From Methanocaldococcus infernus ME (GTDB taxonomy: Archaea; AGJL01; Methanococci; Methanococcales; Methanocaldococcaceae), in assembly GCF_000092305.1 (NCBI RefSeq), contig NC_014122.1, positions 62,001 to 126,000 of the forward strand: a DNA stretch of 64,000 nucleotides, written 5' to 3'. The translations under genes were made by a program, and so were the position numbers. The first letter of the stretch is position 1. The number at the start of each line of letters is the position of its first letter. Below are positions 41,692-45,885 of the stretch, piece after piece. The notes under the pieces are model-generated. The model was not told the DNA's origin. It was given only the letters and a program-made list of their open reading frames with translations, and made no database searches.

Positions 41692-42361
41692 AAAGGTTTA
41701 TGGTGTTGGGATAGGGATAGGTGGAGAGAGCTTAACCTTAAAAGCTTTAAATATCTTAAAAAAGGTTGACAAAATCTTTATCCCAATTTCTAAGAGAGGG
41801 AAAAGCTCTGTGGCTTATGAGTTAATAAAAGAATATATAAAAGATAAGAAGGTTGAAGAACTCTTATTTCCTATGAGTAAGGATAAGGATGAGTTAAAAA
41901 AGTGCTGGGAAGAGAATCTTAAAAAAATACTAAGTGAAGAGGGAGAGGTAGCTTTAATAACCCTTGGAGATCCAACTCTATATAGTACTTTTTCATACAT
42001 GTGGAAAAGCTTAAGAGAGAAAGGGGTTGAGGTTGAAATTGTTTCTGGCATCTCCTCCATCTTTGCAGCTGCTTCCCTATTAAACATCTCCTTAGCTGAA
42101 GGAGAGGAGAAGGTTTGTATCCTTCCACAGGGAAAGGATTTAGATAAATACTTAGATGACTTTGACACTATCATAGTGATGAAAACCAAGAATTTAGAGA
42201 ATATATTGAAAGGCTTAGATAGAGATGACTTAACTATCTACTTAGCCAAAAGGTTGGGCTTGGAAGATGAGAAAATAACTTTTGGCTCTCCAAGGGAAAT
42301 TAACTTCAATGAGTTCAATGACTACCTATCCTTAGCTATCATTAAAAAGGAGAGAAGATGA
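41684..42361 (+). CDS. cbiL: Precorrin-2/cobalt-factor II C20-methyltransferase
   Basis: The 225-aa protein is a tetrapyrrole methylase: YGVGIGIGGESLTLKAL at the N-terminus, VALITLGDPTLYST (the GDP motif) and VSGISSIFAAASLL. CbiL adds the C-20 methyl group in anaerobic cobalamin synthesis. TTG 41684 is the start, with GGTGTAG before it. Elsewhere in the window cobN, chlI/chlD and a cobZ-like gene add further steps of cobamide synthesis. Its last bases overlap the next gene's ATG. Confidence 0.88.
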   Translation: MVKKVYGVGIGIGGESLTLKALNILKKVDKIFIPISKRGKSSVAYELIKEYIKDKKVEELLFPMSKDKDELKKCWEENLKKILSEEGEVALITLGDPTLYSTFSYMWKSLREKGVEVEIVSGISSIFAAASLLNISLAEGEEKVCILPQGKDLDKYLDDFDTIIVMKTKNLENILKGLDRDDLTIYLAKRLGLEDEKITFGSPREINFNEFNDYLSLAIIKKERR

Positions 42362-43398
42362 ATATTATAAGAGAGGTTCCAGAGAGCTTTTTAAATGGAT
42401 TCTATTTGATGCCAACAGATAGGGAAAATATTAAAGAAGGAGGAGAATTTTATTTTATAAATAGAATTCCTATTTTAAGGGTTCATTTTACTCCAAATTT
42501 AAAGAAAAATATAAAAAAGATAGTCTACCTTATAAGGGACAAATACTCTTTTTCCAAGCCAATAAGTGGATGGTTAAGTAATTTATTTAACTACATAAAA
42601 GAGAAAAAATCTTTAAGAAAGCATTATAGAGCTAAAAAAGCTTGGTTTAGAGCAATAGGAGACTTGTTTAAAGATATTGAAAACTGGGAGTTCAGGAAGG
42701 TTATAAATAAAGTAATGTCTTTATTAAGGTCAATTAATCCTATCTTAGTTATAGAGCTTCATGATATTAGTAAGTGGCATCATGGAACCTCTACCATCAA
42801 ATTTATAAAAGAGCTCTACAAAAGAGGAATCTCTATAGTTTTAAGATATCCTCAGGAGTGCCATAACCATATAAAGAAAATATTCCGTGAAGGTAGGTTA
42901 AATATTAAAGGAGCCATTAAATACTTTGCAAGGAAGCTAAATTATTATATTTCTGATAGTGTAGCAGAATATTTAAGTAAGATAAGCCAGGGAAATTTAG
43001 AGGTTGTATATCTAATACTAAAGTGTTGTAAAAGAACTCTAAGAAGTGCAAGGGAAATAAAGATTCCTTGGCTAAAGATACTCCCATATATAGTTGATTC
43101 GAAATATCGAAAGTTCGTTGAGTTAGCTATAGAGTTAAGATCTTTTACTATTGAAGACATTTATTTAAGGCTAAATTATAAGTTACCAACAGTTTATAGA
43201 TATCTTGATGACTTAGCTAAGATGGGAATTTTAAAAAAGATTAAAGCAAGGAAAAAAATTAGGTTTAAATTAAAGTTGAAGAAAGAGAAGCTTATCTCTC
43301 TTCTGGAGAATTATAGATTTAAAAAACCATGGTTAAGTATTTATCTTCTTGATTCTATCCCAGTATTAAAATCTTTCGAGTTTTCGAGTTGCATATAA
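42358..43398 (+). CDS. Divergent Orc1/Cdc6-like origin-associated protein (degenerate ATPase with winged helix)
   Basis: The 346-aa protein has no P-loop, but INPILVIELHDISKW resembles a Walker B strand, GISIVLRYPQE a sensor-1 strand, and ISDSVAEYLSKISQGNLEVVYLILK an AAA+ lid. Residues about 250-310 are a winged helix (IEDIYLRLNYKLPTVYRYLDDLAKMGILKK). Position beside cbiL matches M. jannaschii, where MJ0774 next to the predicted origin was proposed as a diverged Cdc6. Its last codons (SFEFSSCI) are the first origin repeat. Initiator function is inferred. Confidence 0.62.
   Translation: MNIIREVPESFLNGFYLMPTDRENIKEGGEFYFINRIPILRVHFTPNLKKNIKKIVYLIRDKYSFSKPISGWLSNLFNYIKEKKSLRKHYRAKKAWFRAIGDLFKDIENWEFRKVINKVMSLLRSINPILVIELHDISKWHHGTSTIKFIKELYKRGISIVLRYPQECHNHIKKIFREGRLNIKGAIKYFARKLNYYISDSVAEYLSKISQGNLEVVYLILKCCKRTLRSAREIKIPWLKILPYIVDSKYRKFVELAIELRSFTIEDIYLRLNYKLPTVYRYLDDLAKMGILKKIKARKKIRFKLKLKKEKLISLLENYRFKKPWLSIYLLDSIPVLKSFEFSSCI
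43374..43398 (+). repeat. Origin repeat copy A
   Basis: TTTCGAGTTTTCGAGTTGCA followed by TATAA; it overlaps the 3' end of the Orc1/Cdc6-like gene and encodes its final residues. It matches copies B and C over 24 bases. Each copy holds the heptamer TTTCGAG twice in tandem, as an eight-base step. Confidence 0.85.
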
Positions 43399-43540
43399 TC
43401 ATTAATTTTTAATTTAGTTTTTTTAGAAATTATATTCATTATTTTAAATATTGGGGTTAAATGTTTTCCTATAAGAAATTGTCAAGTTCTATTATAAAAA
43501 TGCTTTTGTCTTATAAGAAATCAAATTTACCTTATAATGT

Positions 43541-43572
43541 TTTCGAGTTTTCGAGTTGCATATATGTATATG
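43541..43572 (+). repeat. Origin repeat copy B
   Basis: TTTCGAGTTTTCGAGTTGCA followed by TATATGTATATG. It is identical over all 32 bases to copy C in the opposite orientation. Confidence 0.88.
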
Positions 43573-43886
43573 GCTTAACCCCCTCTCCCACAATCCTCAA
43601 TTTTGAGATTATCACAAAAATTTTTCTATATTTTATATTTATCTTCTAACAATATAAAGATAAAAAAGAAAAATTATACAACATTTTAAATAAATAAAAA
43701 ATAAATAAACAATAATTAATTATTTACTTGTTAAATTTTAAGTAAATCAAAAAAATAAAAATAAAAAACAAAAATTACAACAAAAGATGAGAAATTTAAG
43801 GAAAACTCCAATAAATCTGACAAAATAGTAGCTAACTAACTTTTGCGATAATCACTTACAACACAATACTGGCTAACCTAAAAGAG

Positions 43887-43918
43887 CATATACATATATG
43901 CAACTCGAAAACTCGAAA
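43887..43918 (-). repeat. Origin repeat copy C (inverted)
   Basis: The reverse complement is identical to copy B over 32 bases. It ends at the 3' end of the winged-helix gene. A degenerate copy, ACTCGAAAACATTCGAAA, occurs in the same orientation within that gene at 44168-44185. Confidence 0.88.
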
Positions 43919-43919
43919 T

Positions 43920-44450
43920 TTATTCATCACTATCTTTAATCTTTTCAAATAATCGATTTAGGTAATCGATGTGTTTACATTTATCACTCTGACAGATAGA
44001 ACACCACCATCTGCCTAGATAAGACCTAAATACGATTCCTATAAGCTTCTTATCCGAAGTGTAGAATGAAAAGGTGTAACCTCCCATAGAATCCTTCTTC
44101 CACTTGAGTTCGAATCCAAGGGTTGCAAGTGGGTAATGTTTTATGCTAAATTTCTTATAAGGTAAAGACTCGAAAACATTCGAAAATGCAGGATCAAATA
44201 TTTCGGGCGCCAATCTTTTTAATATGGCCAATCCTTTGCTTGTGAATGAATATACAACCTTATGCCCAATCCTTTCTCTTTTTAATATATTTAAGGCTGA
44301 ACAGAGCCTTAAAAAAGAAGATGCTAACCCCTTTGATATATTTAAATTCTTTGCCAGTGAAGTAGGAAATGTACTTCCTGTTATTACTAAATAGTGTAAA
44401 ATGGCTTTCCTGAATATAGTTGATACAACCTCATAAGGCAATCTTTCCAT
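43920..44450 (-). CDS. Winged-helix protein with a C-terminal SWIM-like zinc motif, next to the origin
   Basis: The 176-aa protein is not assigned to a known family. Residues about 15-75 form a winged helix (HYLVITGSTFPTSLAKNLNISKGLASSFLRLCSALNILKRE, in outline). The C-terminus has WWCSICQSDKCKHIDYL, a C-x2-C-x4-C-x-H motif resembling a SWIM finger. GGTG precedes the ATG at 44450. CpG is more frequent here than in neighbours. Adjacency to the origin repeats suggests a replication or origin-binding role, by inference. Confidence 0.6.
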   Translation of the reverse strand: MERLPYEVVSTIFRKAILHYLVITGSTFPTSLAKNLNISKGLASSFLRLCSALNILKRERIGHKVVYSFTSKGLAILKRLAPEIFDPAFSNVFESLPYKKFSIKHYPLATLGFELKWKKDSMGGYTFSFYTSDKKLIGIVFRSYLGRWWCSICQSDKCKHIDYLNRLFEKIKDSDE

Positions 44451-45012
44451 TTTTACACCTTCAAAATTTTTCTAACTAAAATTATTTTTCTTATAGTTTA
44501 AGATGCTCAAACATTACAAAATTTCTTAACAAAATATTGTTTGGTTCACGATATAAAATTTTCCCCATCTTCAACAAGTGAGTATTACCAACCTAATCTC
44601 AACAAATTTTTAAATTTAACTTCTGATTTGGTATATTTATACTTTTCTTAGCTTAACATAGATTCACTATCCTAATTAAATTTTGATAAGAAAAATAAAG
44701 CTTTGTTAATATACTAAAAAACGTTTGATTCATAGTTTATAGCCAATAATAACTTAATATTCACGTTAATTTATGGAAATTATTTTAAAAGTTATTCCAC
44801 TGAGAAAAATTCAAATTAAATTTATTTCATAGCGATAGTTTATATACTAATACTAATTTTATTCAATTATAAAAATAAGAAATTTGAAGTTAGATAATAA
44901 AAATTAATGGTTAGGTTCACAATAAAAAGTATAAAATAAGTTTAGGTTCACATTATTTAGGTTTGAAAAAATATTTATAAGTAAATTTAGAGTTATTAAT
45001 TTTGGTGAAACC
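44451..45012. other. Long AT-rich intergenic region downstream of the origin block
   Basis: No ORF or hairpin is convincing in these 562 bases. It holds the minus-strand promoter for the winged-helix gene (AAACTATAAG near 44495-44504, read on the minus strand), a strong plus-strand TATA (GATAGTTTATATACTAA, about 44834-44850) with no gene just behind it, a direct repeat TTAGGTTCACA, and a TATA (ATATTTATAAG, 44971-44981) fitting the CofE-like gene. Confidence 0.5.
44911..44952 (+). repeat. Direct repeat TTAGGTTCACA, two copies 31 bp apart
   Basis: TTAGGTTCACA occurs at 44911-44921 and 44942-44952, a step of 31 bp, close to three helical turns. A related GGTTCAC occurs at 44533-44539. The pair sits just upstream of the TATA of the CofE-like gene, where an activator or repressor would bind on one DNA face. 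Confidence 0.5.
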
Positions 45013-45885
45013 TTGAAGGCATATCCAATAAAGACAAGATACATAAAAAAAGGAGAGAACTTCATTCCCATCATAGTGGAGGCTATAAAAAATAGTGGGA
45101 TCAAGTTAGAGGATGGAGACTTTGTAGTTCTAAGTGAAAAGATGGTTTCCACTGCTGAGGGAAATTTTATAGATGAGAGTAAATATAAGCCCAAGATGTT
45201 AGCCTATTTAACTTATTATTGGTCAAAGTACATATGGGGCTATGTCTTAGGAAAAATTTTTAGACTAAAAGAAGAGAAAATAAAAAATCTAAGAAACATG
45301 CCAAAAAGAGAGAGTTTAAGACATAAGCAGATGATCATAGAGGAGCTTGGCTTACTCTATTCTTTAAAGCCCTATGCTGAGGGAGGAATAGATTTAACAA
45401 ATGTTCCCTACACCTATGCCTGTCCCCTTCCAAAAGAGCCTGAGAAGTGGGCTTCTCTTTTGAGGGAGAAAATTAAGGAAGAGCTTGGAGTTGATGTTAA
45501 TGTTATGGTTTCAGATACTGATGCCACTTATAGGCTCTTTAACTTCTATTTTACAGCTCTTCCCTATGCTATTAAAGGAATCCATATTCTCCCTGGAATT
45601 GTTGGCTTCTTATTAGCAAGGATTATAGAACTTTTAAAACTTGGAGGCTTTGCTGGCTGTACACCTTTAGCAGTTGTTGGAAATCATAATTTAAAAATAG
45701 AGGAGTTGGTTAGAATAGCCTTTATAGCTGATAGGGTTCATATAACCACAAAAAACATGGGTGAAGTTTTAAAAAAGCATAACTCTTATATCATTACAGA
45801 AGAAATTTTAGAAAAGTTAGAGCATACTCCTGTAGTTGTAATAAAGATGAAAGAAGAGTTTAAGGGTGAGAAAAATGGAATGTAA
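45013..45885 (+). CDS. F420-0:gamma-glutamyl ligase-like protein (CofE paralogue)
   Basis: The 290-aa protein starts at TTG 45013 with GGTGAAACC upstream. LSEKMVSTAEG, VSDTDATYR and GFAGCTPLAVVGN show the CofE fold, including conserved Asp and Ser/Thr of the metal and nucleotide site. The middle is longer than in CofE proper (about 250 aa), so this is likely the COG1478 paralogue of unknown substrate. A short TATA-to-start distance predicts a very short leader. The 3' end overlaps mrp. Confidence 0.7.
   Translation: MKAYPIKTRYIKKGENFIPIIVEAIKNSGIKLEDGDFVVLSEKMVSTAEGNFIDESKYKPKMLAYLTYYWSKYIWGYVLGKIFRLKEEKIKNLRNMPKRESLRHKQMIIEELGLLYSLKPYAEGGIDLTNVPYTYACPLPKEPEKWASLLREKIKEELGVDVNVMVSDTDATYRLFNFYFTALPYAIKGIHILPGIVGFLLARIIELLKLGGFAGCTPLAVVGNHNLKIEELVRIAFIADRVHITTKNMGEVLKKHNSYIITEEILEKLEHTPVVVIKMKEEFKGEKNGM

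Follow-up and report, generated by a model that had tools for sequence, protein, structure and literature searches.

Does an array of TTTCGA repeats between two convergent genes of Methanocaldococcus infernus mark the place where replication of the chromosome starts? Reviews treat replication initiation in the Methanococcales as an open problem, with Orc1/Cdc6 proteins that are unrecognisable or highly divergent and no experimentally mapped origin (PMC3984812, PMC5333045). Since an origin beside MJ0774 was predicted for M. jannaschii in 2004 (Zhang and Zhang, 2004, as cited in PMC5333045 and PMC3984812), the general location was already known. The window analyzed here is a stretch of 64,000 nt from M. 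infernus (C1:62001-126000 in a genome that consists of one contig, 1,328,194 bp), in which an earlier reading of the sequence had called a probable oriC. Conservation of a pair of repeats, nucleotide skew in relatives, linkage to MCM and Cdc6-like genes, and the joint loss of these elements support this call well, and the stretch is very probably part of the chromosome replication start site. The repeats and the genes that flank them are located as follows (window positions):

42358-43398, plus strand: gene A, 346 aa, degenerate AAA+ protein with a predicted Orc1/Cdc6-like fold and a C-terminal winged helix
43099-43112, minus strand: double box 0, within the coding sequence of gene A
43374-43397, plus strand: double box A (copy A), which overlaps gene A at its 3' end; mean column identity 0.90 in 16 genomes
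43541-43572, plus strand: double box B (copy B), left arm of a 32-nt inverted repeat; column identity 0.94 in 16 genomes
43887-43918, minus strand: double box C (copy C), right arm of the same inverted repeat; column identity 0.93
43920-44450, minus strand: gene B, 176 aa, ArsR/MarR-like winged helix with a C-terminal zinc-type motif, WWCxxCQxxxCxH
44170-44185, minus strand: double box D, within the coding sequence of gene B

The basic unit of the array is a double box, TTTCGA-N2-TTTCGA, with N4 in one case. A scan of the M. infernus genome for TTTCGAN{2,4}TTTCGA identified exactly five double boxes, all within 1.1 kb (C1:105099-106185), namely A, B and C plus one within each flanking gene (0 and D); the two intragenic boxes had been missed in the original prediction. 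The 24-mer of copies A/B/C, with up to 3 mismatches allowed, is found at three sites in the 1.33-Mb genome, each of them here, and the origin call thus withstands the genome-wide count of its repeat, which is confined to one locus. The boxes had been described as conspicuous in a region that avoids CpG, and indeed TTTCGA occurs 10 times in the window, each time within 43099-44185, compared with a background density of 0.04 per kb in 400 kb sampled from the genome. Copies B and C were correctly seen as identical over 32 bases and facing each other: they are 100% complementary over 32 nt and 314 bp apart (about 315 in the original prediction), and copy A, which does overlap the end of gene A as described, equals B over 24 nt. 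The extent originally given to the element, 43374-43918, holds for copies A-C but is too small, because boxes reach into both genes and the spacer beyond gene B (spacer 2) contains ORB-type repeats. By inspection, the boxes of the gene A/gene B spacer (spacer 1; TTTCGArTTTTCGA) do not match the common ORB consensus TCCA...GAAAC (PMC4164010), and an Rfam search of the spacer gave no structured-RNA match. Since genes A and B converge on spacer 1, boxes A-C are located at gene ends and not at promoters, and a promoter role for them is unlikely.

The distribution of the boxes was determined by searching 36 Methanococcales genomes with a degenerate 30-nt pattern, allowing up to 3 mismatches. In 26 of the 36 genomes, the pattern matched spacer 1, in both orientations in 24 and in one orientation in two (G015 and G030); a few genomes contain one further match with 3 mismatches, which is outside the spacer, on copy A, or ahead of the Cdc6-like gene. 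Orthologues of A and of B are present, adjacent and convergent, in the same 26 genomes. No match at up to 3 mismatches was found in the 10 genomes that lack both genes, and the reversed pattern gave zero matches. The outer length of the B-C pair is 367-379 bp in the 18 genomes measured; M. vannielii, with a longer spacer, is an exception. Within the genes, the boxes are retained at the cost of very rare codons, TCG making up 0.15% of the serine and CGA 0.11% of the arginine codons of M. infernus. The serine codon in box 0 is TCG in 11 of 12 Methanocaldococcus genomes (the twelfth has GCG and so retains the CG), and the arginine codon is CGA in 9 of 12; box D keeps its rare TCG codon in 18 of 19 orthologues from Methanocaldococcus and relatives. 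The retention of these codons shows that selection at the intragenic boxes acts on the DNA itself rather than on the protein.

The interval between copies B and C comprises a core with a second, inner pair of repeats:

43573-43886, no strand: AT-rich core, candidate unwinding element, 79% AT overall
43607-43617, plus strand: inner repeat GATTATCACAA, column identity 0.92, compared with about 0.68 at the centre
43843-43853, minus strand: inner repeat TTGCGATAATC, inverted partner of 43607-43617

The DNA between B and C had been called extremely AT-rich. Its most AT-rich 240 bp are 85.4% AT, a value reached by 0.055% of the sampled genome windows, which bears the description out. Across genomes, the length of the core is conserved and its sequence poorly so. 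Since a pair of fixed spacing surrounds a tract that ranks among the most AT-rich in the genome, the arrangement looks like a flanked unwinding element.

Gene A had been described as a diverged Cdc6-like gene. It is distinct from MJ0774, whose M. infernus orthologue was found at C1:297327-298538 (L085:8325-9548), and the identification with MJ0774 was therefore discarded; what stands of the description is the predicted fold, which resembles Orc1/Cdc6. The best PDB matches of the AlphaFold model (pLDDT 83) in Foldseek are 2qby_A (E 7e-5) and 2v1u_A (6.9e-4), both Orc1/Cdc6 on origin DNA, and later matches include eukaryotic ORC subunits, among others. Full-length TM-scores to Orc1/Cdc6 are low (0.19), so that the fold match is one of domain by domain and the likeness structural only. 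Residues 1-182, the AAA+ part, superimpose on TnsC with a Z of 10.2 and an rmsd of 3.0 over 130 residues, and residues 247-307 form the winged helix. Sequence-profile searches with protein A returned winged-helix models and weak Hda-lid ones, with no Orc1/Cdc6 model among them, and a profile search against the sequences of solved structures returned nothing significant. Neither a Walker A nor a Walker B motif is found in any of 24 sequences, and protein A is therefore at most a pseudo-ATPase. It is a candidate initiator or loader subunit. A viral or plasmid source of gene A was considered and set aside, as no relatives were found among viral contigs or plasmids and viral fold matches were weak only. 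In one metagenome-assembled genome, gene A contains an internal TAG stop (G008:C5:46046-47065), which points to a pseudogene or a sequencing error.

In protein B, C150, C153, C158 and H160 (C-x2-C-x4-C-x-H) are invariant in 26 sequences. The C-terminus (window 43923-44450), with the invariant W-C-x2-C-x4-C-x-H, is compact and zinc-knuckle-like and matched no Pfam model. The winged helix resembles, among many others, the centromere binders AspA and TubR, which raises the possibility that the TTTCGA array is a parS-like centromere next to the origin and that protein B coats the boxes and segregates the new origins. The many boxes, inverted and direct, that extend over 1.1 kb beside an origin, some of them intragenic, would agree with this; however, such a fold match is to be expected of winged helices in general, and no ParA- or TubZ-like partner gene was seen among the neighbours of the locus.

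The gene order in the Methanococcaceae is MCM, A, spacer 1, B, spacer 2, the Cdc6-like gene and an MptA-like gene; in Methanocaldococcus, cbiL occupies the place of MCM beside gene A. The Cdc6-like gene of the relatives is the MJ0774 orthologue, an AAA+ protein with an ArsR-type winged helix. By pattern, the MJ0774 family has Walker A in 9 of 9 and Walker B in 8 of 9 sequences, and it matches the profile TIGR02928 with an E of 7.5e-11, under the curated cut-off. In M. infernus, MCM and the Cdc6-like gene are both elsewhere and, of such genes, A and B alone remain; along with spacer 1 and the spacer-2 repeats, they stayed after MJ0774 left. The claim that the gene setting agrees with the proposed M. 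jannaschii origin is thus right as to the locus, but the MJ0774 orthologue is not beside the repeats; it lies at ~297 kb, where it abuts its upstream gene without a spacer. Its relocation has taken the gene ~190 kb away from the origin region, and the 18 kb around its new position contain no TTTCGA word. In M. jannaschii, a TTTCGA double box that is missing in M. infernus is located just upstream of a TATA-like sequence before MJ0774 (L084:9103-9124 and equivalent positions). Because of this position, the box binder may also regulate the Cdc6-like gene in M. jannaschii. Of the MCM genes of M. maripaludis, just one, MMP0030, is likely essential (PMC3984812); judging from locus numbering, it would be the origin-linked MCM. 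A NUBPL/Mrp-type ATPase gene at 45866 is a neighbour of the locus in M. infernus and was not found there in the relatives examined.

The spacer between gene B and the former place of MJ0774 contains a second set of sites:

44451-45012, no strand: spacer 2, with five same-strand ORB-like repeats of the TTTGATTCAYRATWTTTT type
44540-44557, plus strand: ORB-like repeat 1
44724-44741, plus strand: ORB-like repeat 2
44755-44772, plus strand: ORB-like repeat 3
44911-44928, plus strand: ORB-like repeat 4
44942-44959, plus strand: ORB-like repeat 5

The interval published for M. jannaschii by Zhang and Zhang is said to be this spacer between gene B and MJ0774. The offsets of the five repeats from gene B (89, 273, 304, 460 and 491) are common to M. 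jannaschii and others. Ori-Finder 2 lists an ORB motif of the spacer-2 type for the Methanococcaceae (PMC4164010), TT[TA][GT]ATTCA[TC][GA]AT[AT]T[AT]T[AT], and in M. infernus this motif is present in spacer 2 at the five fixed positions with 1 to 3 mismatches and absent from spacer 1. As the classical site with ORBs is spacer 2, an accessory role is conceivable for spacer 1. Spacer 2 might even be the origin by itself, and the TTTCGA array a separate control element acting in initiator titration, in handcuffing, or as an autoregulatory operator. The five fixed motif positions, together with the related double box that precedes the TATA-like element before MJ0774 in M. jannaschii, argue for such a division of roles; on the other hand, the B-C pair around its extreme AT tract has the look of an unwinding element, and an operator would be oddly placed at the ends of two converging genes. 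We regard this explanation as possible, though somewhat doubtful, and favor an origin that comprises both spacers.

The position of the origin was also estimated from GC3 skew in 20 samples of 20 kb per genome, with the best origin position taken for each. The skew maximum of M. vannielii is at 1,049,229, compared with 1,049,480 for the locus (t 5.5; 95% of the null at 2.6; 0.0% of the genome away), that of a second Methanococcus genome at 968,928, compared with 976,520 (t 4.9; 0.4% away), and that of M. aeolicus at 1,263,447, compared with 1,202,720 (t 3.5; 3.9% away); because the sampling grid is coarse, agreement tighter than some tens of kb is partly luck, and spacers 1 and 2 are not separable at this resolution. 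The scan gave no usable GC3 signal at the locus in M. infernus and M. jannaschii, and in the latter only the T/A skew peaks near it, 5% of the genome away. The GC-skew check on the original prediction thus placed an origin at or near the locus in three Methanococcaceae, but gave no signal in M. infernus itself, which would use the site of its relatives. A conserved distance to the axis was considered as further support; it was strong at first and weakened once pairs near the locus had been dropped, with M. aeolicus against one Methanococcus genome giving an r of 0.54 (p 0.0025) and two other pairs being not significant.

Inverted protein-binding sites can also stop replication forks, as Ter-type sites do. 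The locus could accordingly be a replication terminus or fork barrier in which the inverted boxes act as fork traps between convergent genes, and the flanking genes do converge on spacer 1. However, the skew at the locus has the sign of an origin (G-rich leading strand) in the three genomes. MCM and initiator-type genes at the locus argue against a terminus as well, as does an rRNA operon located ~7 kb from the spacer in one Methanococcus genome and transcribed away from it (L089:13691-18001). We give a terminus hardly any credence.

The origin reading can be further evaluated in the genomes from which these elements are missing. Seven genomes of one Methanococcaceae genus (G021, G024-G028, G032) are without A, B, MJ0774 and the boxes, and also without the origin-linked MCM (MCM-a), while MCM-b is retained. 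The absence of MCM-a was judged from the range and length of the matches, with a tree in addition for G021 and G028. Of these module-less genomes, one (G028) is closed, and several reach 96-99% completeness. G010 (270 contigs, 81% complete) also is without A, B and MJ0774 and has the origin-type MCM, whereas G031, at 54%, is too incomplete for loss to be judged, and the absence in G029 is probably an assembly gap, since its MCM and Cdc6-like gene are at contig ends. Because MCM-a and the Cdc6-like gene are among the elements lost together, the loss points to a role in initiation, which counts against the centromere outlined above for protein B, and we consider that explanation unlikely. The cassette of MCM-a, A, B, the Cdc6-like gene and the boxes might alternatively be an ancient integrated plasmid replicon that is dispensable for the chromosome. 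Its loss as a unit in a sub-clade keeping only MCM-b would be expected of such a replicon, and extra MCM genes in the Methanococcales are often of mobile origin (PMC3984812). Vertical conservation and synteny across all five genera, the lack of gene A relatives in viral contigs or plasmids, and a chromosome-wide skew centred on the cassette all argue in the other direction, making a plasmid replicon very unlikely. Replication in the sub-clade may need no defined origin or may depend on an unknown initiator, and the sub-clade represents a natural experiment in chromosome copying by an archaeon that has lost the module.

Taken together, the stretch that runs from box 0 through spacer 2 (~43099-45012) is, in our judgment, probably a bipartite origin of M. 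infernus and, by orthology, of most Methanococcales. In the mechanism that we propose, the ATPase-competent MJ0774 would most likely bind the five repeats of spacer 2 (TTTGATTCAC repeats), an assignment made because both are the most conserved elements. The TTTCGA boxes would most likely be bound by protein A and/or protein B, which, by bending or bridging the inverted boxes, would cause the AT-rich core to open, and the linked MCM-a would then be loaded. More tentatively, and as a possibility to be taken seriously, we suggest that A and/or B read a private TTTCGA code, which extends even into codons of the genes that encode them, while the active Cdc6-like protein reads the ORBs of the next spacer, and that the sub-clade has discarded all of this and replicates in another way with its second MCM.

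The proposal comes down to a single locus with two sets of sites and three candidate proteins, and these can be tested in the genetically tractable M. maripaludis. In the open-licence literature, there is apparently no report of the TTTCGA array and its intragenic spread, of the Orc-like fold predicted for protein A, of the linkage to MCM, or of the module's loss. Compared with the origin predicted for M. jannaschii, the locus is the same, spacer 2 has that type of ORB motif, and MJ0774 is located downstream in the relatives, whereas in M. infernus it has left. Protein A is predicted to have a layout of AAA+ and winged-helix domains that may be comparable to that of the Orc1/Cdc6 initiators (arCOG00472-type, class I methanogens; PMC4390880) but differs in having no Walker A or B motif (24 of 24). 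As a non-canonical winged-helix initiator at an origin, WhiP of Sulfolobus oriC3 (PMC5333045) is comparable in kind. With the archaeal origins of Pyrococcus, Sulfolobus (oriC1) and the haloarchaea, the locus has in common inverted repeats around an AT-rich tract, initiator-type genes and a shift point of the skew. It differs from them in that the TTTCGA boxes are unlike the common ORB (PMC4164010) and extend into coding sequence, and in that it has two repeat systems, one on either side of gene B.
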